A stretch of DNA of 64,000 nt from Deltaproteobacteria bacterium. Lineage in GTDB: Bacteria; Myxococcota_A; Polyangia; HGW-17. The position numbers and the translations under genes are program-made. The stretch is from NCBI GenBank assembly GCA_016937155.1, contig JAFGWM010000027.1:1-64000 (forward strand). Reading direction: 5' to 3'. The notes beneath the pieces were generated by a model. It saw only the letters and a list, made by a program, of their open reading frames with translations. It ran no database searches and was not told the DNA's origin. Shown in pieces: positions 5,336 through 17,529 of the stretch. Numbering within the stretch: the stretch's first letter is position 1; each line of letters starts with the position of its first letter.

Positions 5336-6301
5336 CTAAAATCTGAATCCTGCCATTATTGAGCAGCCATTATGAGTGCACAAAGGCATAAAGGAAGCAG
5401 ATTTTTCATCTGTTTTTTTACCGTTTTTATCCATAAGAACTACAGCAACAGTAATTCCGATGGAAACTACACCTGCTCCCAGAAGAATGTCTGTGGCAAG
5501 AGCATAGTTTTTTCCTGTGGATTTTAAATCTTCCCTATTCATCGGATTCGTTTCTGCTTTGAAATCATCTTCATATCCCAGTGCTGTAACACCGGTATAA
5601 ACAGCCCCAAGTATCAGGACTGCAGATAAGGATGCCCCGGTAATAAATTTCCAACTGGTAAAAACACTCTTCTTCCCTTTTGGGATAATAATCTCATCGG
5701 GTTTGGACTTTCCATCAGGAGATAATGCTTCCAGTTTTATATCCATTGTAACCAGCGCCCCCTGAGTAACCGTCACTTTTTTCTGAATTTCTGAAAATCC
5801 CTTTTTTCTGATTATCACAAGATGCTCTCCCGGAGTAAGATTGATAACTTTGGGAGTAACACCGACCCGTTTTCCACTAAAAGCATCAATAAAAATACTG
5901 GCCCCCCTAGGCTGGGTCACAATACTGAGTCGACCTGAATTACCCGCAGGCAGAGATTTCAGTATTTTATTCATTTCGGATATATGTTTTTCAACTTCAG
6001 ACTTCAGAGCAGTATGAGGAAGTCTGCTTAAAAAGAGTCTGTAGAAAAATATGGACTTTTCATACTGTTTCAATTGACGGTGGCACTGAGCTATATTAAA
6101 TAAAAGCTCCGGTTTGTCACTGAGATCGAATGATGACTTGTAATTTTCCAGAGCCTCTGAAAATTCTCCAACACTGTAGTGTTTTTCTGCTGTCTCATAG
6201 TGAGTTTTCGCCTTTTGCAGGTTTTTAGCATCCACCGGAGTAATAAAAACCATAAAAAACAAAAATTTAATAAACACCGTCTGACTAAATATCTTTCTCA
6301 T
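5336..6301 (-). CDS. Secreted/membrane TPR and PEGA-domain protein
   Basis: Product of 321 residues. A signal-like hydrophobic start (about 8-25) is followed by TPR helices (about 27-115: YETAEKHYSVGEFSEALENY, then PELLFNIAQCHRQLKQYEKS), a PEGA domain (about 125-192; GRLSIVTQPRGASIFIDAF, GVTPKVINLTPGEH), and two hydrophobic helices near 216-241 and 270-290. TPR+PEGA proteins are common partners of Hanks-type kinases in myxobacteria-like genomes; the domains mediate protein contacts and surface presentation. It begins one base after the kinase gene stop, so the two are translationally coupled. The probable role is an envelope component regulated by or sensed with the kinase, which is inference from order only. 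Confidence 0.8.
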   Translation of the reverse strand: MRKIFSQTVFIKFLFFMVFITPVDAKNLQKAKTHYETAEKHYSVGEFSEALENYKSSFDLSDKPELLFNIAQCHRQLKQYEKSIFFYRLFLSRLPHTALKSEVEKHISEMNKILKSLPAGNSGRLSIVTQPRGASIFIDAFSGKRVGVTPKVINLTPGEHLVIIRKKGFSEIQKKVTVTQGALVTMDIKLEALSPDGKSKPDEIIIPKGKKSVFTSWKFITGASLSAVLILGAVYTGVTALGYEDDFKAETNPMNREDLKSTGKNYALATDILLGAGVVSIGITVAVVLMDKNGKKTDEKSASFMPLCTHNGCSIMAGFRF

Positions 6302-6302
6302 A

Positions 6303-7850
6303 TCAGAACATCACCTTTAGTGTATCCTCCCCCACCATGGTTCGGATTTTTTTCTTCATTGACCCTCTCATACCTGAGGAATACTTTCTACCTGAACTAA
6401 CTTTTCGAGGTACAAATTTTACGTCAAGATTTTCACTTACATTAATAATTTTTTCCTGTCCCTTAAAGAGTTTTCCCTGTGGAACAAGTTTTATCAGCGA
6501 ACCTTTTTCAGCATTAAGGTTAAAAGGAGTTTTCTTGAAATAAGGTTCCTTGAACTTTTCAGTAATTTCAACCAGAGTAGGCTTTACAGATGTAATTTTT
6601 ATATGAAAAACAGTGTTTATTTCTTTTTCTTCAGAAACAGTGTTTATTTTAGTACTATCTGAAGTTTTTCCTTGAAGAACCAGATCCTTATCAGATTTTT
6701 TATTACCCTCTGTACTTTTACTTATCTTATTTATCACCTGTTCCTGCTGTGTGGAGGATTTTCCGGATGCCTCATTACCATTTCCCGACAGAAGGGTTTT
6801 CCAAAGTGAAAATACAATAACCACTGTAATTATCAGTCCAAGTGAAATAATCAGTCCTTTATGTGATGATTTTTTATCCTGAGAAGCTACACCCATGGGA
6901 GACTTAATACCAGCAAGTGTTGCATCAAGCCCATGTGCATCTATCCGGGTAAAGGGAATTGCCTTCATATTAACAGGCAGAGCTTCACAGACTTTACTAA
7001 AATCTTCACTGAACTCACCAGCAGTTTTATATCGATCCTCAGGTTTTTTCTCAAGAGCCTTCCCAATAACTGACCAAAGTTCCTGAGGGAACCCTGGCAG
7101 ATAATCCATGATGGGCACAGGGGGCTCGCTGATATGTTTCATAAGCACTTTGGGAACGATATCCCCATCAATGGGAAGCTGGCCTGAAAGCATCTGATAA
7201 ATAATGATAGCCAGTGAATAAATATCACTGGCAGGACCAATAAGATGAATACTCCCAGCCGCCTGCTCAGGACACATATAACTTGGTGTCCCCATAATCA
7301 GACCGGTGGCGGTTTTATGTTTCGCCCCCATATCCGGCTCCATAAGTTTGGCAACCCCAAAATCAAGAATTTTAGCCTGAATAACACCACTATCCACAGT
7401 AATGAAAATATTGTCCGGTTTGAGGTCTCTATGTATAATTCCAACCTCATGAGCAGCATCAAGGGCGCTTGCCATCTGATTCAGGAGGTCCAGAGTATCA
7501 GCTATGCTCATTTCTCCCTGATTCATCATGTAAACTGAAAGATCCACACCTTCAAGATACTCCATTGTAAGATATAGTCTTCCATCAGGAAGTTGACCAA
7601 AGTCAAATACCTGAATAATATTTCGATGACTTATTCTGTTTACAGCTTTTGCCTCTGATAAAAACCTGTCCGCCATTTCAGGGTTTGCACTGAATGATGC
7701 AATGAGTACCTTTATCGCCACTTTTCTGCCAATCTGGGGATGTTCCCCCAGATAAACCTGCCCCATAGCGCCCTCTCCAAGCAGCTCTCTTACTTCATAA
7801 TTTCCTACAGTAGTACCAATTAAAGGATCATTCAGTTCCTGGCCTTCCAA
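6303..7850 (-). CDS. Transmembrane Hanks-type serine/threonine protein kinase
   Basis: The kinase domain carries all key residues: glycine loop GEGAMG (25-30), ATP lysine K47 in VAIKVL, catalytic loop HRDLKPDN (Asp142), DFG (163-165) and the CPEQ activation-segment end (193-196). One transmembrane helix (about 333-351) separates it from a periplasmic tail of about 165 residues ending in a basic PEGA-like stretch. I chose TTG at 7850 because GGAG (7861-7858) stands 7 bases before it; an in-frame TTG at 7871 includes the ribosome site itself. This is the PknB-like layout that couples envelope signals to Ser/Thr phosphorylation. It heads the operon with the TPR-PEGA and lipoprotein genes. Confidence 0.9.
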   Translation of the reverse strand: MEGQELNDPLIGTTVGNYEVRELLGEGAMGQVYLGEHPQIGRKVAIKVLIASFSANPEMADRFLSEAKAVNRISHRNIIQVFDFGQLPDGRLYLTMEYLEGVDLSVYMMNQGEMSIADTLDLLNQMASALDAAHEVGIIHRDLKPDNIFITVDSGVIQAKILDFGVAKLMEPDMGAKHKTATGLIMGTPSYMCPEQAAGSIHLIGPASDIYSLAIIIYQMLSGQLPIDGDIVPKVLMKHISEPPVPIMDYLPGFPQELWSVIGKALEKKPEDRYKTAGEFSEDFSKVCEALPVNMKAIPFTRIDAHGLDATLAGIKSPMGVASQDKKSSHKGLIISLGLIITVVIVFSLWKTLLSGNGNEASGKSSTQQEQVINKISKSTEGNKKSDKDLVLQGKTSDSTKINTVSEEKEINTVFHIKITSVKPTLVEITEKFKEPYFKKTPFNLNAEKGSLIKLVPQGKLFKGQEKIINVSENLDVKFVPRKVSSGRKYSSGMRGSMKKKIRTMVGEDTLKVMF

Positions 7851-7921
7851 CGACGGACTCCTTTTATTCAAGCTGCGGCTGCCTTCAGTGGCAACAATTT
7901 CTTAAATCGGAAACCTCGCAG

Positions 7922-7949
7922 ATTATATTAGAAAAGCCTTGTGAATCAA
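7922..7949 (-). promoter_or_regulatory. Sigma70-type promoter for the kinase operon
   Basis: On the minus strand TTGATT (7949-7944) and TATAAT (7927-7922) are 16 bases apart, a near-consensus pair. Transcription would begin near 7915, about 65 bases before the kinase TTG start. Confidence 0.6.
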
Positions 7950-8073
7950 CCATTAACTTAACCTATTATTTCAGAAAATAAGTTATTTAGCTCTATAGAT
8001 AGCCCATCTGCTTAAATCCTTTTGGTTGACAGGGATGGATAAATTTATTTTTATCAAGTGCGGAGGTATACAC

Positions 8074-8715
8074 ATGAAACGCTATTTTACCTTTTTCTTA
8101 ATCACTTTATTTCTGGTTTCCTGCTCTGGAAAAGAAGACAAAAAAACTGAATCTGAAAAAAATCAGGATAACAAAAAAGTCCATAAATCCACTACCAATA
8201 AAAAGAAAACTGAAAGTGAAGTAAAAAAGAACTCAAATATTAAAAATCAGCCGGATGATATAAAAAAGAAAACAGTTGAGAAGAAAGAGCCAAAATATTT
8301 CTCTTCATCCTTACTGAGTGGAAAAGAAACTGTAAATGATAAACCGGTGAAGCATTATAAAATAAAACTTTCCGGAAAGGATGCAGTGGTCCTAATCAGC
8401 ACCAGTTTTCCTGAGTTAAACTCAATAAAGGGATACACCGGCTCATTTGAAGTTCAGGGAGCTTTTGACAAGGATGGCAACCTGATTGCCGCAGGTTTCG
8501 GAAAGAATGCGGAGACCCCTGAATTTATGGAGAGAATCAAGAAAGAATGGCTTGGTAAACTTGAAAACACATCTGTAAAAAAACCCCTGACAGGTAAAGG
8601 TTCTCTTGACGCATTATCTGAAGCAACCATAAGTACAATGGCTATAAAAAATTCACTTGATGCTATGCGGAAATTATATCTGAAGAATTTTAAATCATCC
8701 AAAACCGGGAAATAA
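8074..8715 (+). CDS. FMN-binding-domain lipoprotein
   Basis: Product of 213 residues. The lipoprotein signal ends at Cys17 (FLITLFLVSC), followed by a very Lys/Glu/Asn-rich tether (18-75). The C-terminal domain follows the FMN_bind pattern of RnfG/NqrC: a strand GAFDKDGNLIAAGFGKNAETPEF, then DALSEATIST (179-188). In this family a Thr in an (S/T)GAT-type motif receives FMN through a phosphodiester made by ApbE; here the motif reads SEAT, with Thr185 as candidate. CGGAGGT directly precedes the chosen ATG; a TTGACA (8026-8031) lies upstream, with a weak -10. It is transcribed toward the redox operon on the other strand, which also has an FMN-binding lipoprotein. Covalent flavin attachment is inferred. 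Confidence 0.72.
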   Translation: MKRYFTFFLITLFLVSCSGKEDKKTESEKNQDNKKVHKSTTNKKKTESEVKKNSNIKNQPDDIKKKTVEKKEPKYFSSSLLSGKETVNDKPVKHYKIKLSGKDAVVLISTSFPELNSIKGYTGSFEVQGAFDKDGNLIAAGFGKNAETPEFMERIKKEWLGKLENTSVKKPLTGKGSLDALSEATISTMAIKNSLDAMRKLYLKNFKSSKTGK

Positions 8716-8731
8716 TCTGATATTCAGAAAA

Positions 8732-9100
8732 TCATTTTACAACTTTAAATTTAAGCTTTGTTCCATGTTTTCCAGATTTTGAACATACTCTCCACATTTC
8801 GATCATCGCCTTGGCATTCAGTATTTTAACTTTAATTTCACTTAAGTATTTACCTTTTCCTTTTTTCTTCCATTTGCTCATTGAAAGTTTTTTTACCCCG
8901 GTAAATTTCAGTTTAATATCATCAGTATCAAGTTCACATGGATGATGTATCCATTTTATGGATGCACTGATCTTTACCGTCTCACCAACCTTCACAGTTG
9001 ATTTCTCCGGTTTAAGTTTCTGAATACATGCATCAGCAGATGGGGAAACAAGCAGAAAAAAAAGTCCAAGCATCGCAGACAAAATATATCCTGATTTCAT
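8732..9100 (-). CDS. Small secreted protein of the redox locus
   Basis: Product of 122 residues with a signal peptide (ILSAMLGLFFLLVSPSADA) cut just before or near Cys25. The mature part is a Lys-rich, beta-looking domain (KSTVKVGETVKISASIKW) with only three cysteines, at about 25, 54 (HHPC) and 107 (WRVCSK). It ends the operon that holds the barrel and ferredoxin genes, 82 bases after the barrel gene. The fold resembles a small Ig-like sandwich, but no family is recognised. A metal or redox role would be a guess; HHPC is a possible ligand site. Confidence 0.65.
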   Translation of the reverse strand: MKSGYILSAMLGLFFLLVSPSADACIQKLKPEKSTVKVGETVKISASIKWIHHPCELDTDDIKLKFTGVKKLSMSKWKKKGKGKYLSEIKVKILNAKAMIEMWRVCSKSGKHGTKLKFKVVK

Positions 9101-9182
9101 AACAAACTCCTTTTAAAGTAAGATAAAAGTCCCTATGCATCCTTGTGTATACACAAAAAAAGAGAAAAAATTCAGAAAATAA

Positions 9183-10487
9183 TTAAAAAACTATTCTGGC
9201 AACAGCTCTAATTCCATGGCTGACAGGCAAATCACCTGCAGCTATGTTGATGCCGGAATAAATGAGTCGTAACTGATATTTGGATTTATTACCTATAAAC
9301 CATGTTACTCCTGCTTCCAGTTCATCATCAACAACTTCACTTAAGACTTTTGCAAGATGATAATGATAGGCAGTATGAAGCCTGAAAGAATGAATTTTAT
9401 ACCTGACAGCAAAACTGTACACATGGCCGTCATAAAGACCGTATCTCTGTCTGGATCCCAGATCAAAGCTCTCAAATATACTGGCGAAATGAAGGTTGTC
9501 CTCAGTCAGAAAACTTCCACTGTACCTGGGATTAAGTACAATATGACCACCAGGGGCATTTATTTTATACTGAAAACCGCCAACCACTCCAAACATTGGT
9601 TTCATACCATCAATTCTGAGAGCACCAATAAGTTCTGTCTCGTAATATAATTTCTCCGTAAAAAACGGCCCTATCGCGTATACACTGAGGAAATCAGTTG
9701 TAAGTTTCTCAGGATATTCCGGGTTGAGTTCAGTCATATCCCGATCCCTTAGGGAGAGTTGAAGAAGGTTCATTACACTGATCTGATGAGGTTTTGCGAA
9801 TTTAAATCTGGCAACTGCCCCTGTGGCAATGTAATCACCATAGTTAGCTGTACACAGCCTTTTCCAGGCGCGTCGATTTTCGTAATACTGTTCATATCCG
9901 CAACCCAGAGTTTCTCTGGCCAGTTCATTCGCAAAAACACCTGAAAATAATTGAAATGATGTTTTAAGGGTTTCACTTTTGTATTCAAGCTTGAATGCAT
10001 CAAAAAAGTTATCAATAAGAGCCTGAGTTCCGTAGGTGAAATTCTGGCGACCCACACTGATTTTAGTGTTCTCACCTTCCCAGCTGCCATACAGTTTTCG
10101 CAACTGGGGTATGAGTTCAAAATCCTTGAAGGTCGGAACTGCCCATGAGTTGCAGTTTTCAACTGATTTCCTCTGTTTCAGTTCACCTTCAAACACAAGG
10201 TTCAGTGAACCACCAAAAGTCTCCTCAATGGTATAGTCAACCACCCCTCTGACGGCTGCGAAACCATTTTTAAGCAGCTCAGCAGAGGAATCAGAAGCTG
10301 TTGCGTCCTTTTCCCAGATAAAATAATTTGCAAGCCTGAGTTCCATCCCCCAGTAGAGTTCCTTTTCCCCAACCTGATGGAGATTTTCATTGAGACGGGA
10401 TGGACAATTCTTGGCGTAAACATTAAATGGAATATTTAAAATGAAAAAACCAAGAAAAGAAACTTTTAGAAATTCAGTTATTTTCAT
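9183..10487 (-). CDS. Predicted outer-membrane porin-like beta-barrel of the redox operon
   Basis: Product of 434 residues with a signal peptide ending IPFNVYA-K. The body has repeated amphipathic strands and the phrase KISVGRQNFTYGTQALIDNFFDAFKLEY, as in 'alginate export' type porins and related 16-18-strand barrels. The C-terminus ends AVARIVF with a final Phe. I chose the ATG at 10487 because GGAGC precedes it and it overlaps the ferredoxin stop by 14 bases; the longer frame to 10532 is mostly ferredoxin-coding DNA. The overlap means the barrel is translated together with the exported ferredoxin, a strong hint that they act together. Few Cys occur and none form a heme motif. Confidence 0.75.
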   Translation of the reverse strand: MKITEFLKVSFLGFFILNIPFNVYAKNCPSRLNENLHQVGEKELYWGMELRLANYFIWEKDATASDSSAELLKNGFAAVRGVVDYTIEETFGGSLNLVFEGELKQRKSVENCNSWAVPTFKDFELIPQLRKLYGSWEGENTKISVGRQNFTYGTQALIDNFFDAFKLEYKSETLKTSFQLFSGVFANELARETLGCGYEQYYENRRAWKRLCTANYGDYIATGAVARFKFAKPHQISVMNLLQLSLRDRDMTELNPEYPEKLTTDFLSVYAIGPFFTEKLYYETELIGALRIDGMKPMFGVVGGFQYKINAPGGHIVLNPRYSGSFLTEDNLHFASIFESFDLGSRQRYGLYDGHVYSFAVRYKIHSFRLHTAYHYHLAKVLSEVVDDELEAGVTWFIGNKSKYQLRLIYSGINIAAGDLPVSHGIRAVARIVF

Positions 10488-10989
10488 GAATAGCTCCAAA
10501 TGGACAGAACTGAAGTTCAACACATTCTCCACAGTGACTGCATTTCAGTTGATTAATACGACTCCGGTTCGGATTTGACTGATAAATAGCCCCTGGCCTC
10601 TCCTCATCAAGACATACGTAATAACATTCAAGACACTGTACACATTTATCCTGATCAATGGCGTAATTGACATTAAAACCATCTGTCCCTTCAGACTCAA
10701 TGACAGATTCATATGAACAGCTCAGTGCACAGGCGGCACAGTGGATACACAGATCCTGATCTATATTTACGGTGTTAGGTTCACCTGAGAGTTCAATAGC
10801 ATTCTTTCCACACTGCGGAAGGCATGTTCCACAGGCAGTACATAGATCTGTTACAATAGAATAGCGGTAAAGTTCCTCACAGTTTTCACTGCACTCCCCA
10901 GAAAGGTTCTCACAGGATGCTGCGAAACCCGCTATCCCCACAGTTGCTACTGTATTTGATATCTTTTTAAAGAATTCCCTTCTGTCCAT
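10474..10989 (-). CDS. Tat-type lipoprotein ferredoxin with four [4Fe-4S] motifs
   Basis: Product of 171 residues. The start DRREFFKK is a twin-arginine signal, followed by a hydrophobic stretch and a lipobox AASC with Cys26. Four cluster motifs follow: C50-C53-C56-C60, C81-C84-C87-C91, C116-C119-C122-C126 and C150-C153-C156-C162 (the last with a longer spacing, followed by Pro). Proteins of this kind carry electrons between membrane or periplasmic partners, as the beta subunits of DMSO-reductase-type enzymes do. No catalytic subunit is beside it; instead an FMN-binding lipoprotein lies 17 bases upstream and a barrel overlaps downstream. Folded export with clusters and lipid anchoring is inferred from the signal. 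Confidence 0.85.
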   Translation of the reverse strand: MDRREFFKKISNTVATVGIAGFAASCENLSGECSENCEELYRYSIVTDLCTACGTCLPQCGKNAIELSGEPNTVNIDQDLCIHCAACALSCSYESVIESEGTDGFNVNYAIDQDKCVQCLECYYVCLDEERPGAIYQSNPNRSRINQLKCSHCGECVELQFCPFGAIHENN

Positions 10990-11006
10990 TTATTTTTCCT
11001 TCGGAT

Positions 11007-11669
11007 TTATTCAGAATCTGCGAACAGAGTCTGGATCAGCAACTGGGTATTTACAACATACTCAAGACAGGTGTAAGTGGTATAGGCAGCATCCGCAACA
11101 ACACTGCCCACATAAGCCTCAAAAGTTGCTCCGGTTAAATCATCAACCATATCCAGTCTGTCATCAAGATTCAGAAGAAGTGATGGCGGATTGGCCATAA
11201 AACCTTTAAGAGCAGTCATATCATCTTCGGTAAAGGGTATGGAATCTGATGTATTATCAGGGATCCCCTTCATAAACGGGGCAGTGGTGCCTTCCTCATG
11301 GAAAATATCAAGAAATTCACCCTGAGAATCAAAAACTATATCAAACTGGATAGCACTGCACTGCTTATCATGGCATCCAACACCGGTTTTAACATGGCGT
11401 ACATACCCCATAACATTTTCAAATTCATCATAAATACAAACAATGGATGCATCCTTCGGCTCAATTATATTCTCCTCAAGACTTTCAGCCGGTACAGGAA
11501 TCTCTTTTTTAAGCTGCATATCGGGAAAATATGAAGAAAAAAGAGCTTTATCATCATCGTCTACACTTACAATTTTCGGTCCTGAACTTGAGGAATCATC
11601 GCACCCCTGAAAGATAAATGCTACAACCAGAACCAGTTGCCATACCGTAAGTCTAAATAAATGCCTCAT
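11007..11669 (-). CDS. FMN-binding-domain lipoprotein of the redox operon
   Basis: Product of 220 residues. The lipobox FQGC gives Cys23, then an acidic tether. The domain has strands CIYDEFENVMGYVRHV and IQFDIVFDSQGEFLDIFHEE, a glycine-turn FMKGIPD, and the flavinylation-type motif DDLTGATFEAY (TGAT 179-182, acceptor Thr182). This is how RnfG/NqrC and other ApbE substrates look. A CHDKQC pair (99, 104) could form a disulfide. ATG at 11669 is favoured by GAGG eight bases upstream and by the signal peptide; the longer frame to 11726 adds an unlikely second hydrophobic stretch. It is the first gene of the ferredoxin/barrel operon. Membrane side depends on Lol sorting and cannot be read here. 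Confidence 0.7.
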   Translation of the reverse strand: MRHLFRLTVWQLVLVVAFIFQGCDDSSSSGPKIVSVDDDDKALFSSYFPDMQLKKEIPVPAESLEENIIEPKDASIVCIYDEFENVMGYVRHVKTGVGCHDKQCSAIQFDIVFDSQGEFLDIFHEEGTTAPFMKGIPDNTSDSIPFTEDDMTALKGFMANPPSLLLNLDDRLDMVDDLTGATFEAYVGSVVADAAYTTYTCLEYVVNTQLLIQTLFADSE

Positions 11670-11698
11670 TTTTGCAGCCTCCATTTGCATCAGAATGC

Positions 11699-11726
11699 AT
11701 ATTAGCATCAAACTTAAAAAGTTCAA
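11699..11726 (-). promoter_or_regulatory. Promoter of the redox operon
   Basis: Minus strand: TTGAAC (11726-11721), 16 bases, TAATAT (11704-11699); start of transcription would be near 11692. A second, weaker pair (TTGCAA/TATCAG, 17-base gap) lies about 55 bases further up, near 11760-11730. Confidence 0.5.
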
Positions 11727-11936
11727 CTGAACTGATAATGGAACGAATATGTTATTGCAAGGTTTTTCTCCAGTAAATATTAATCTTTGGATTTTTTACA
11801 AATTATTTCCTAAACCATGAATTTGTTGTAGAATCCGGTAAATCTAAAACTACTGAATAAGAAACTGATTACTTTTTCAGGGACTTGGATATCAATATTT
11901 TTCGGTGCATCAACTGATGAGGATGTGAGCAAAACC

Positions 11937-12524
11937 ATGGAACAGCACGATAACAACTGGGAGTGCAGAATTTGCGGTTTCACAATTGACGGAGGTAAAC
12001 CCCCTGTGGAATGCCCCTTGTGTAAAGCCCCGGAATCAGATTTTTTCAGAACCATCGCCAAACAGCGAACCACGGTTCAAAGACTGCCTGTGAATAACAA
12101 AAACAGAGAAACCGGCCAATTCAGAGAAACAGATAAAGCTCCTCAGTCTAATATAATTTCAGAGGTGAATCCCGATAATCGTTTTACCAGTGGTATTCCG
12201 CTTTCAAGAACAGCAGTCTCCAACACACAGGATTCCGAACAGACTGATTTTAGTGCATTAAGACGCATAACCACCGACATGCTGATACTGGTTCCTGTAT
12301 TGGAAGCATCAGGATATCCTGAAATTGCAGATTCACTCAAAAAAATCATAACTGAAATTCTTGTGGAAACATACAGGGAAGACAGTAAAAAAACACATAA
12401 ACTATTGAATGCAATATCAACATTCAACAACCGGCATATTTCATCAGGAGATATTGAGAGTAACATTTCCCGGAAACTTAAAGATCTCGAAACATTTCTG
12501 GGTAGAGTAAAATCCATGATCTAG
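11937..12524 (+). CDS. Rubredoxin-like domain protein with helical C-terminus
   Basis: Product of 195 residues from the ATG at 11937 (a GTG at 11925 is in frame but too close to AGGA). The N-terminus is a rubredoxin-type metal knuckle: WECRICGF (Cys10, Cys13) and ECPLCKAPESDFF (Cys26, Cys29), as at the end of rubrerythrins, binding one Fe or Zn. A polar linker (about 40-95) leads to a helical domain (about 100-195) with no recognised family. No signal peptide is seen, so it should be cytoplasmic. It is divergent from the flavin/ferredoxin operon, which gives a redox context; a role in electron transfer or in oxidative stress is possible but unproven. Confidence 0.7.
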   Translation: MEQHDNNWECRICGFTIDGGKPPVECPLCKAPESDFFRTIAKQRTTVQRLPVNNKNRETGQFRETDKAPQSNIISEVNPDNRFTSGIPLSRTAVSNTQDSEQTDFSALRRITTDMLILVPVLEASGYPEIADSLKKIITEILVETYREDSKKTHKLLNAISTFNNRHISSGDIESNISRKLKDLETFLGRVKSMI

Positions 12525-12683: not shown

Positions 12684-14360
12684 ATGAAGACATTATTTAA
12701 ATTTTCGTTCTTGGTTATTTTCTTTGCTTTATCCGGATGTGCCGGTGGGGGAACTTCCACCAACAACACTAATACTGAAACCATCTGTAACGACGGAATG
12801 GACAACGACAGCGACGGTGATACAGATTGCGATGATTCCGACTGCGCTGATGATTCCTATTGTCAGACATCCAATCCGGAGCTCAACTGTACTGACGGTA
12901 TCGATAATGACAGCGATGGCGCAATTGACTGTGCAGATTCCGACTGCGTAAGCTCATCAACTATTTGTGGAGCCGAAATTTGTAATGATGGCTTTGATAA
13001 CGATGGCGATGGGCTTAAGGACTGTGCAGATTCCGACTGTACAGGCAATCCGTTATGTCCAACCGCAGAAATATGCAACAATAACATTGATGATGATTTG
13101 AACAATCTGAAAGACTGTGCGGATCCTGCCTGTGTTGGTTCAACCGGCCCGGGAGGCATCACCTGTGAATCACAGGAAATTACGTGCAATGATAACGGCG
13201 ATAATGACGGCGATGGTCTTGCTGATTGTCAGGATCCGAACTGTTCCACAAGCACCTACTGTGATGGACCTCAGGAAATCTGTGATGATGGGAATGACAA
13301 CGACAGTGACGGTTACGCTGACTGCAGAGATCTCGACTGTAATGGACAGGTAGGCCCTGGCGGTATAGCCTGTCAGAATCCCGAGACAAGCTGTGGAGAT
13401 AGTCAGGATAATGATCAGGACGGATATACCGACTGTGATGATCCCGATTGCTTTGCTGATGAAAACTGTATAGAACCTGAAGACTGCACTGATGGAATTG
13501 ATAATGATGGTGATGGAGCAACCGATTGTGATGATTCTGACTGTAACGGACATACAAACTGCACCACCACATCTGAAAACTGTACTAACGGTGTTGATGA
13601 TGATGGTGATTTGCTTATAGACTGTGCTGATCCAAACTGCGTTGGAAGTCTGGGACCCGGGGGAATTACCTGCCAGACCACCGAAACAAACTGTGTGGAT
13701 GGAGGCGATAACGACGGTGATAACTTAACCGATTGTGATGATCCAAACTGCTCATCAAACAGTGCATGTATAACAGGAACCTGTGATTTTGAAGACATGT
13801 TCTATGACAGTACAAATCCATGCGGCTCATCAGCTGGATGTTTCCTTTCTGATACTTCCACTGATCCCGATACTCTGGAATGTATTGACAGTTCAAACTT
13901 TGGCGGTTCATTTTTCGATAACTGTACATTCACTAACCTTTGCCCCATGGGTTCCATCTGTGCAGGAGACACAACAGCCAGTTACTGTTACCCATTATGT
14001 GATTTTGAAACCTCCCAGACTACATGCCCTACAACTGATTCAGAATGTGTAGGCGGTCTAACTAATTCCGATTTTGAATTATGCCACCAGAGTGATGGCT
14101 GTGACCTGAACCTTCAGGACTGTACTGACAGTGCTGACGCATGTTATCTGGTAGGGGAAAATGATAACACATTCTGTTTCACAGAGGGTACCTTGGGTGC
14201 TGAAGCAGCATGTACTTACCTTAATGACTGTGCAAATGGTTACATATGTACTGGTGTAGGCTGTCTACAGGCATGCAGAATGGATGGAACAGGTATCGCC
14301 TGTACCAGTGGTTCATGTACAGATGTTTCATTTTCTGAAACCTGGGGTGTGTGTTATTAG
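12684..14360 (+). CDS. Cys-rich lipoprotein with ten Asp-rich repeat modules
   Basis: Product of 558 residues. The lipobox ALSGC gives Cys19, then a short Thr/Asn tether. Residues about 30-365 hold ten modules of the form C-x-D-G-x-D-N-D-x-D-G-x(3)-D-C-x-D-x-D-C, about 22 residues each plus spacers of 7-15. The D-x-D-x-D-G core resembles calcium-binding loops of thrombospondin type 3 and related repeats, and the three Cys per module suggest disulfides. The C-terminal part (about 370-558) is another Cys-rich domain that recurs in the 16603 gene. Such modules are common in Myxococcota surface proteins of unknown function. A Ca-stiffened surface rod is plausible, by inference. Confidence 0.8.
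   Translation: MKTLFKFSFLVIFFALSGCAGGGTSTNNTNTETICNDGMDNDSDGDTDCDDSDCADDSYCQTSNPELNCTDGIDNDSDGAIDCADSDCVSSSTICGAEICNDGFDNDGDGLKDCADSDCTGNPLCPTAEICNNNIDDDLNNLKDCADPACVGSTGPGGITCESQEITCNDNGDNDGDGLADCQDPNCSTSTYCDGPQEICDDGNDNDSDGYADCRDLDCNGQVGPGGIACQNPETSCGDSQDNDQDGYTDCDDPDCFADENCIEPEDCTDGIDNDGDGATDCDDSDCNGHTNCTTTSENCTNGVDDDGDLLIDCADPNCVGSLGPGGITCQTTETNCVDGGDNDGDNLTDCDDPNCSSNSACITGTCDFEDMFYDSTNPCGSSAGCFLSDTSTDPDTLECIDSSNFGGSFFDNCTFTNLCPMGSICAGDTTASYCYPLCDFETSQTTCPTTDSECVGGLTNSDFELCHQSDGCDLNLQDCTDSADACYLVGENDNTFCFTEGTLGAEAACTYLNDCANGYICTGVGCLQACRMDGTGIACTSGSCTDVSFSETWGVCY
12786..13770 (+). repeat. Coding repeat region of Asp/Cys modules
   Basis: Ten degenerate direct repeats of about 65 bases, spaced roughly 90-120 bases apart, each containing a GAT/GAC-rich core followed by a GACTGT-type Cys codon. 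They are in phase with the lipoprotein frame and conserve the protein better than the DNA, so they are domain repeats and not a CRISPR array. Confidence 0.8.
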
Positions 14361-16602: not shown

Positions 16603-17529
16603 ATGAAAACCTTAAGACTTTTATTTTCCCTTGTTTTTTTACTGAGCGTAGGTGCCATCGCGTGTGATGATGATAGCAGCTCAAATAACGGCACACAGGA
16701 AATCTGTGACAACCATGCAGACGACGATGGCGACAACCTCGTGGACTGTGCTGACCCTGACTGCGTAGGAACAGCAGCATGCGCTAACAACAATACTACA
16801 AATAACACTACAAATAACACCACCAACAACACAACTGTTGAAACCATTTGTAATGACGGTCAGGATAACGACAATGATGGTCAGACCGACTGTTCAGATT
16901 CTGATTGTGCAAACGCAGCAGATTGCAGCACCACAACAACCTGCGACTGGGATCATATTTTCTATGATGTAACTGACGACGGTTGTGATGATGGACAGGT
17001 TTGTGCTCCAGTTATGACCGAATCAAGCACAGATGTTGGATGTGTAGCTGGTACAAACTATGGAACACAGGATTTCTATTCTTCATGTGACGCACTTGGT
17101 CAGTGCCCGGTTGGTTCTGATTGCGTTGGTGACGGCACCACTTTTGAGTGTCTCCCCTTCTGTAGCGCAGATCACACAGATTGTCCCGATGGCGGACTGT
17201 GCAACAGTGGTTTCCAGGGTGTGGATGAATTCAGGCTTTGTACACTGCCCGATACATGTGATCCTGTTGCCAACACAGGTTGTGATGCAGGAGGCTGCTA
17301 TATAGTGGATCAATCTGGTACCACTCAGTGTATCTCTCCTGCGGGAACCGGAGAGCTTGGCTCAAGTTGTACATACCTGAATGACTGTGCCCCCACAACG
17401 CTTTGCGCAGGGGACCCCGGCACATGTATGCAGCTTTGTGACACCAGCAATGATACCTGCCCAGACGGCGAAACCTGCCAGAGTCTTGGTATTGATACAA
17501 TTGGTGTTTGTGCTGCTTCTGCAAAATAA
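16603..17529 (+). CDS. Cys-rich lipoprotein with two Asp-rich modules and an NTT linker
   Basis: Product of 308 residues. A lipoprotein signal ends at GAIAC (Cys21). Two D-x-D-x-D-G modules (about 32-60 and 80-110) are separated by a linker of repeated Asn-Thr-Thr-Asn. The remaining 190 residues form a Cys-rich domain homologous to the end of the 12684 protein: both begin CD(F/W)-x(2)-(M/I)FYD, contain a CP-x-GS-x-C motif and end with SCTYLNDCA and a last Cys-rich turn. The pair therefore share one domain and differ in module number (10 versus 2). The strong leader suggests it is an abundant surface protein. Function is unknown. Confidence 0.8.
   Translation: MKTLRLLFSLVFLLSVGAIACDDDSSSNNGTQEICDNHADDDGDNLVDCADPDCVGTAACANNNTTNNTTNNTTNNTTVETICNDGQDNDNDGQTDCSDSDCANAADCSTTTTCDWDHIFYDVTDDGCDDGQVCAPVMTESSTDVGCVAGTNYGTQDFYSSCDALGQCPVGSDCVGDGTTFECLPFCSADHTDCPDGGLCNSGFQGVDEFRLCTLPDTCDPVANTGCDAGGCYIVDQSGTTQCISPAGTGELGSSCTYLNDCAPTTLCAGDPGTCMQLCDTSNDTCPDGETCQSLGIDTIGVCAASAK

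Follow-up and report, generated by a model that had tools for sequence, protein, structure and literature searches.

In a 64,000-nucleotide stretch of DNA (referred to throughout as the window; contig JAFGWM010000027.1, assembly GCA_016937155.1) taken from a 4.1-Mb Myxococcota draft genome, three genes on the minus strand form an operon that encodes a lipoprotein with an exact flavinylation motif (here called FMN2), a lipoprotein ferredoxin carrying a signal for twin-arginine translocation (Tat; the protein is here called Fd), and an outer-membrane β-barrel; downstream of the barrel gene, on the same strand, lies the gene for a small exported protein of 122 residues (S122). Taken together, what is known here of this set, which comes from sequence and predicted models, points to an undescribed envelope electron-handling system, possibly for iron uptake. 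It is likely that the set represents an electron-transfer module tied to the pore and to S122, and the preferred account of its purpose, for which the chances are put a little short of even, is that it serves a substrate entering via the pore, most plausibly ferric iron. The genes concerned are as follows.

11007..11669, minus strand: FMN2, lipoprotein whose gene opens the operon; DDLTGAT, matching the ApbE flavinylation motif exactly, unknown domain family
10474..10989, minus strand: Fd, Tat-exported lipoprotein ferredoxin; four 4-Cys (Fer4) motifs
9183..10487, minus strand: outer-membrane β-barrel; 18 predicted strands, AlgE/OprD-type fold, no Pfam family
8732..9100, minus strand: S122, small exported protein, 122 aa; invariant Cys25, His52, Cys55 and Cys106

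The operon runs from 11669 to 9183. FMN2 is separated from Fd by a 17-base gap, and the barrel gene begins with an ATG at 10487, ahead of the Fd stop codon at 10474-10476, so that the two genes overlap by 14 bases; sequences resembling ribosome-binding sites (GGAGG/AGGA/GGAG) can be seen by eye ahead of each of the three starts. The initial annotation of this locus had placed the genes correctly to within the choice of start codon, had recognised the barrel gene and its 14-base overlap with the ferredoxin gene, and had assigned the products to the outside of the cytoplasm, as their export signals bear out; it overlooked S122, the constant partner of the barrel.

Conservation of the three-gene set

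Relatives were sought among 193 genomes from the class and 379 from the phylum, many of them fragmented. Within the class, the barrel is present in all 8 genomes of one family in the GTDB classification (f1, comprising four genera) and in none of the 185 other genomes sampled. FMN2, Fd and the barrel are adjacent and in the same order in all 7 family genomes where the contig allows this to be judged; in the eighth (G084) the contig begins inside Fd, leaving the first gene out of view. The expectation, made when the locus was first annotated, that the three genes would be conserved together in relatives is therefore borne out in 8/8 family genomes, in one of them only as far as the contig shows. 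The closest copy of the locus is in the metagenome-assembled genome Old_saline.mb.39 (JAHJMN010000069.1), and a search of genome contigs for the locus returned the sister species only.

What flanks the set differs from genus to genus: a rubredoxin-like gene and S122 in g1 (the genus of the window), S122 and an FMN_bind lipoprotein gene (FMN1) in g4, unrelated genes in g2, and in g3 a Nuo-like membrane complex with rubrerythrin upstream. It is this constancy of the trio amid differing flanks that identifies FMN2, Fd and the barrel as the conserved unit. In one g3 genome (G043; locus L024, 3700-14800) the set lies directly downstream, on the same strand, of a Nuo/Mrp-type complex, an NfnB/GltD-like subunit and rubrerythrin.

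The two putative redox lipoproteins

Fd has an RR-x-F Tat motif, a lipobox (AASC) and, at residues 50, 81, 116 and 150, four complete CxxCxxCx(3-5)C motifs, which makes it a bacterial-type polyferredoxin by sequence and agrees with what the initial annotation had said of its cluster motifs and of both signals. All 16 cluster cysteines are invariant across the 8 genomes, and the RR-x-F motif together with a lipobox-like Cys is present in 7/7 copies with an intact N-terminus. Its closest solved relatives are the methanogen polyferredoxins MvhB and FwdF. The natural reading of these signals is that Fd is a lipid-anchored periplasmic ferredoxin with four cluster motifs.

FMN2 has the lipobox FQGC and the motif D-D-L-T-G-A-T, an exact instance, in an exported protein, of the seven-residue motif D-x-x-[S/T]-G-A-[S/T] recognised by ApbE (PMC12052999). 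The motif occurred only 17 times in 1,934 collected open reading frames (about 368,000 residues), always within FMN_bind proteins or members of the FMN2 family, and its occurrence in shuffled versions of FMN2 gave p = 0.0014. Genera g1, g2 and g4 keep it, as does a distant homologue (L050, as DGTSGAT). However, FMN2 could not be identified as an ordinary FMN_bind protein by Pfam, NCBIfam, PDB-sequence, hhalign or Foldseek comparison or by a home-made hidden Markov model (HMM): no Pfam (E ≤ 1) or NCBIfam model matches it, PF04205 included, the HMM, built from 12 known FMN_bind domains, gives E of about 30, a search against PDB sequences found nothing significant, and the Foldseek match to NqrC is too weak to count. 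An exact motif in the absence of any known FMN_bind model marks FMN2 as a candidate substrate of ApbE with a domain of a new type, and it is probably flavinylated, in this uncatalogued domain, in most of the family. The AlphaFold model has a predicted local distance difference test score (pLDDT) of 80; this model, like that of the barrel, was built on 9-10 sequences. FMN2 also has a conserved CxxxxC (C99, C104). No plasmid-borne relatives of it were found.

ApbE itself, which the initial annotation suggested should be looked for nearby, is not near the locus: the genome has a single ApbE gene, unlinked to it. The gene was found in 5 of the 8 family genomes, the three in which it was not being 70-77% complete. 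It does adjoin a distant FMN2 homologue in another Myxococcota genome (G415, locus L049), where ApbE (PF02424, 2e-47) lies directly downstream of the homologue and a protein with six CxxCH motifs lies upstream, in what appears to be a minus-strand operon of hexaheme protein, FMN2 and ApbE (5753-9045). The motif of that homologue is non-intact (THGTAPT). In a further genome (G397; L050, 6820-8925) the FMN2-like domain and a TlpA/ResA-like thioredoxin domain are joined in a single 701-aa open frame, which also has a lipobox; we know of no description of such an architecture.

The barrel

The AlphaFold model of the barrel (pLDDT 72) has 18 strands, joined by turns that are short on the periplasmic side and by loops that are long on the outer side; Phe is the last residue of the sequence. 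By Foldseek the best match is AlgE (4afk, 4.1e-13), followed by OprD/Occ-type porins, so that the predicted model is that of an 18-strand monomeric channel of the AlgE/OprD type and the earlier identification of a barrel gene stands. The likeness to AlgE is at the level of the fold (12% identity) and is common to OprD-type porins; with no Pfam or NCBIfam match, the protein does not belong to the alginate-export or OprD sequence families. Two candidate identities were set aside: an MtrB-like barrel, ruled out because MtrB has 26 strands (PMC7198977), and DUF3570, ruled out because the Pfam scan gave no match (PF12094).

Four cysteines of the barrel are invariant in the family. In distant copies C28 and C196 are kept and C112 and C212 are both missing; overall, C28 occurs with C196 in 10/10 sequences, and C112 and C212 are either both present or both absent. 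This pairwise pattern favours two structural disulfides, and argues against redox or metal sites.

S122 and the wider pore module

The mature N-terminus of S122 is at or near Cys25. The protein is found in 7 of the 8 family genomes, the exception being 70% complete. Searching the 379 phylum genomes with a profile of the barrel revealed two further Myxococcota families, represented by G194 (6e-33) and G273 (5e-14), and a profile of S122 found all 5 barrel genomes plus one other, G336, in which a probable divergent barrel (hhalign P 0.001, probability 20%) lies two genes from S122. The co-occurrence of the two proteins gives a Fisher p of 9e-11, which is uncorrected for phylogeny, stands for three to four independent lineages, comes from an S122 profile built partly on barrel-adjacent copies, and must be discounted for shared ancestry. 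In G007 and G194, barrel and S122 are at separate loci, implying that their co-occurrence is more than adjacency.

In four lineages the barrel or S122 has the gene for an iron-sulfur protein as its neighbour. In the family of the window this is the Tat ferredoxin; in G194, G273 and G336 it is a NapH-like protein (PF12801), which stands beside the barrel (L044) and beside S122 (L079) in G194, beside both in a divergent array in G273 (L045), and between the two in G336 (L080). The NapH-like proteins of G194 and G273 are 45% identical, and in these genomes, two of the three distant lineages, the clusters also contain a diheme cytochrome lipoprotein (41% identical). In G194, same-strand genes for FeoB (NCBIfam feoB, 1.8e-80) and for a DtxR-C/FeoA protein come immediately after those for NapH-like protein, S122 and cytochrome. 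A search of the class centred on G194 took in one genome and so contributed nothing further. Regarded as a locus in its own right, this region (L079, 6924-12377), which runs from the NapH-like gene through S122, the cytochrome lipoprotein and FeoB to the DtxR-C/FeoA fusion, may be an operon for redox-assisted uptake of ferrous iron.

Proposed mechanism and alternatives

The genes, their export signals, the cluster and ApbE motifs, the fold class of the barrel, and the patterns of conservation and co-occurrence are read from sequence; flavinylation, the clusters bound, the way electrons move and the nature of the substrate belong to the following inferred scheme. FMN2 would carry flavin mononucleotide (FMN) on the threonine of its motif, attached by the single ApbE of the genome, and would receive electrons from a membrane complex encoded elsewhere, for which the candidates are Rnf, two Nqr-type complexes and a NosR-like FMN_bind/iron-sulfur protein. 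Fd would relay these electrons through up to four [4Fe-4S] clusters to an acceptor, namely a substrate that the AlgE-type pore admits and that S122, the Cys/His protein, handles in the periplasm; this would most plausibly be ferric iron or some other metal, whose reduction would make its import possible. Elsewhere among Myxococcota, this pore and S122 would be served by the NapH-like membrane iron-sulfur protein, joined in two of three lineages by the diheme cytochrome lipoprotein. The constant pair would then be pore and S122, with carriers that vary among NapH-like protein plus diheme cytochrome, NapH-like protein alone, and flavin lipoprotein plus Tat ferredoxin. A metal is suggested as substrate by the occurrence of FeoB and DtxR/FeoA in one lineage, by the invariant set of three Cys and one His in S122, and by the channel type of the barrel; that specific step, in its simplest form the reduction of ferric iron for import, is the more doubtful part of the account, with modest support and, taken by itself, a likelihood well short of even.

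Several findings weigh against this scheme, or parts of it. The link to iron comes from one genome (G194), and the loci of G273, G336 and family f1 have no iron genes beside the set. No homologue of Fd was found in the NapH-type clusters, so the equivalence of the modules is judged from gene position, and S122 matched no known family. As to FMN2, comparison with FMN_bind by hhalign gave 15%, which is not significant, and Foldseek gave nothing significant either (best E 0.25, with NqrC third at 0.42). Its motif is altered in genus g3 (STAT/TTAT) and absent from the ApbE-linked L049 homologue; TAT in place of GAT, together with the loss in L049, indicates that flavin is not universal across the family.

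Other accounts of the same genes must also be considered. The initial annotation had envisaged a route of electrons outside the cytoplasm, perhaps to the outer membrane, and the fullest form of that idea is cytochrome-free extracellular electron transfer, in which electrons from FMN2 and Fd would enter or traverse the barrel on their way to an outside acceptor, making the system a flavin/iron-sulfur analogue of porin-cytochrome conduits. The export signals on all three products and the conservation of the operon fit such a system, as does the linkage of the barrel to redox proteins in four lineages, in one of them directly to a diheme cytochrome gene. However, an 18-strand barrel of the AlgE/OprD type is not the 26-strand barrel of MtrB (PMC7198977), the operon encodes no surface-exposed redox protein, and the barrel cysteine pairs look like structural disulfides, so that this account is considered decidedly unlikely, and the step to or across the outer membrane is not upheld. 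Passage of electrons to the exterior by way of the barrel is a possible reading, though not the favoured one, and there is only a slim chance that Fd docks inside or beneath the 18-strand barrel and, together with a flavinylated lipoprotein of a new domain, moves electrons across or to the outer membrane with no cytochrome. The proposal that the route lacks cytochromes is true of the window locus, there being no CxxCH gene in the set and no credible one in the window, but relatives of the module do carry the diheme cytochrome. Overall, the initial interpretation is partly supported.

It could instead be that the redox proteins form a periplasmic reducing system for thiol or oxidant defence, with FMN2 and Fd reducing envelope disulfides or peroxides and the barrel serving as a target or solute channel. 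The conserved CxxxxC of FMN2, the thioredoxin fusion of the L050 homologue, and the conserved cysteines of S122 and the barrel would all be in keeping with this. On the other hand, no thioredoxin, DsbD or peroxidase was seen in the barrel or S122 clusters examined, and the fusion occurs in a genome without a detected barrel; the account is regarded as unlikely. Another proposal, that the barrel moves carbohydrate or polymer in or out in the manner of AlgE and that the redox genes are mere neighbours, can appeal to the alginate exporter being the top structural match, but that likeness is one of fold, shared with OprD-type porins as noted above. In four lineages, moreover, the barrel or S122 is linked to iron-sulfur proteins, the three genes keep a fixed order in 8 genomes, and polysaccharide genes were not noticed at the loci, all of which makes this proposal very improbable.

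Neighbouring genes and other observations

Three further features lie close to the operon.

8074..8715, plus strand: FMN1, FMN_bind lipoprotein; degenerate motif DALSEAT, convergent with S122
11699..11726, minus strand: candidate sigma-70-type promoter of the operon, TTGAAC-16-TAATAT (by eye)
11925..12524, plus strand: rubredoxin-like protein without export signal; RUBY_RBDX 1.9e-10, divergent from the operon

FMN1 is genuinely an FMN_bind protein (PF04205, 30.8 bits where the Pfam cut-off is 22; E 4.6e-7) in which the conserved Gly of the motif is replaced by Glu (D-A-L-S-E-A-T), so that it departs from the ApbE motif; EAT also occurs in its g4 relatives. It is a paralogue of the FMN_bind domain found in NosR-like FMN_bind/Fer4_5 fusions elsewhere in the family genomes, to which, judging from sequence, it is 27-34% identical, and it stands beside the three-gene set in genera g1 and g4 only. 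Where the initial annotation saw two lipoproteins with FMN_bind-type motifs (TGAT and SEAT), both motifs are thus real, but the SEAT motif of FMN1 is degenerate and the domain of FMN2 is not shown to be FMN_bind. The rubredoxin-like gene was likewise described correctly, as was its orientation, but among relatives it accompanies the set in the sister species alone and, having no export signal, is ruled out as part of the system. A promoter-like counterpart, TTGAAT-16-TACATT, is present upstream of the sister-species operon (by eye, and from two sequences only).

Between the barrel stop and the S122 start, at window positions 9143-9156, there is a perfect 14-base palindrome, TTGTGTATACACAA, with no counterpart seen in the sister species. 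Beyond the rubredoxin-like gene, at 12684-14360 and 16603-17529, are lipoproteins with tandem D-x-D-G-D-x-x-D-C-x-D-x-D-C repeats, the former belonging to no Pfam family; homologues of these adjoin the locus in L018 and L021. Elsewhere in the same genome, contigs C76, C33 and C34 (L025-L027) hold one Rnf and two distinct Nqr-like operons, all served by the one ApbE detectable in the genome, and contig C55 (L082, 6966-8320) encodes a 172-aa NapH-like mini-protein directly followed by a probable DtxR-type regulator (by eye). PF12801 proteins of similar size occur in several family genomes.

Comparison with known systems

Most described Gram-negative envelope electron routes use c-type cytochromes or FMN_bind/NapH proteins. 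Surveys of flavinylated systems (Meheust et al. 2021, PMC8238504) cover NapH-like, MsrQ-like, PepSY, DsbD/DUF3570 and Nqr/Rnf-like classes as well as P19-linked iron systems. The present set is described neither in the available text of that paper, whose supplementary gene-cluster tables could contain an instance without discussion, nor in that of PMC10979944. Searches of the open-access literature for Tat ferredoxins with FMN lipoproteins and the outer membrane, or for extracellular electron transfer in Myxococcota, likewise turned up no account of it, though a description elsewhere is possible.

The NapH-like systems of Meheust et al. 2021 (PMC8238504) resemble the present one in combining an FMN carrier with an extracytoplasmic Fer4-type protein, in the swapping of flavin and cytochrome, and in their dependence on ApbE, and PF12801 proteins are present in relatives of the pore/S122 module. 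The window locus differs in having a Tat-exported lipoprotein ferredoxin and no NapH-like membrane protein (PF12801 genes occur elsewhere in the genome, and none is clustered with an FMN_bind or ApbE gene here), in a flavin protein that is not detectably FMN_bind, and in having as core parts an AlgE-type barrel and S122, both absent from the survey text in the portion available.

The DUF3570/DsbD system (PMC8238504) similarly couples an ApbE substrate with an envelope protein of unknown function, and its small secreted Cys protein (DUF4266) and proposed iron link via VIT1 are a further likeness; in contrast, the present barrel falls outside DUF3570 and lacks a flavinylation motif, and there is no DsbD, thioredoxin or DUF4266. 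P19/FTR1 clusters with FMN_bind or thioredoxin proteins (PMC8238504) have periplasmic redox proteins serving ferrous iron import, which recalls the FeoB gene adjoining the NapH-S122-cytochrome genes in one relative (L079). They differ in that P19 (PF10634) and FTR1 (PF03239) had no match among the scanned proteins of the window or the relative clusters, where an outer-membrane pore and a Tat ferredoxin are found instead.

As in the porin-cytochrome conduits (MtrAB, PMC7198977), an outer-membrane barrel is here genetically tied to periplasmic electron carriers, but it has 18 rather than about 26 strands, there is no multiheme cytochrome partner, and a carrier inside the barrel is unsupported. 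The Geobacter porin ExtI (PMC5877670), needed for full metalloid reduction without a conduit role having been shown, is also an ordinary-sized porin-like protein in a redox cluster, although a cytochrome-rich one with no flavin or ferredoxin lipoprotein, and the comparison is by description rather than homology. Flavin-based extracellular electron transfer of the Listeria type (FmnB/PplA; abstract of PMC9973259 and general background) shares the use of a flavinylated lipoprotein as extracytoplasmic carrier with no cytochromes; Listeria, however, is Gram-positive, and its cluster has NADH dehydrogenase and quinone genes and neither ferredoxin nor barrel.

Set beside these systems, the module joins a probable new ApbE-substrate domain and a Tat four-motif ferredoxin lipoprotein to an outer-membrane pore. 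It offers a direct test case for the exchange of flavin, heme and iron-sulfur carriers within one system, another for metal reduction and import in uncultured Myxococcota, and hints of function for three unannotated protein families: FMN2, the barrel and S122.

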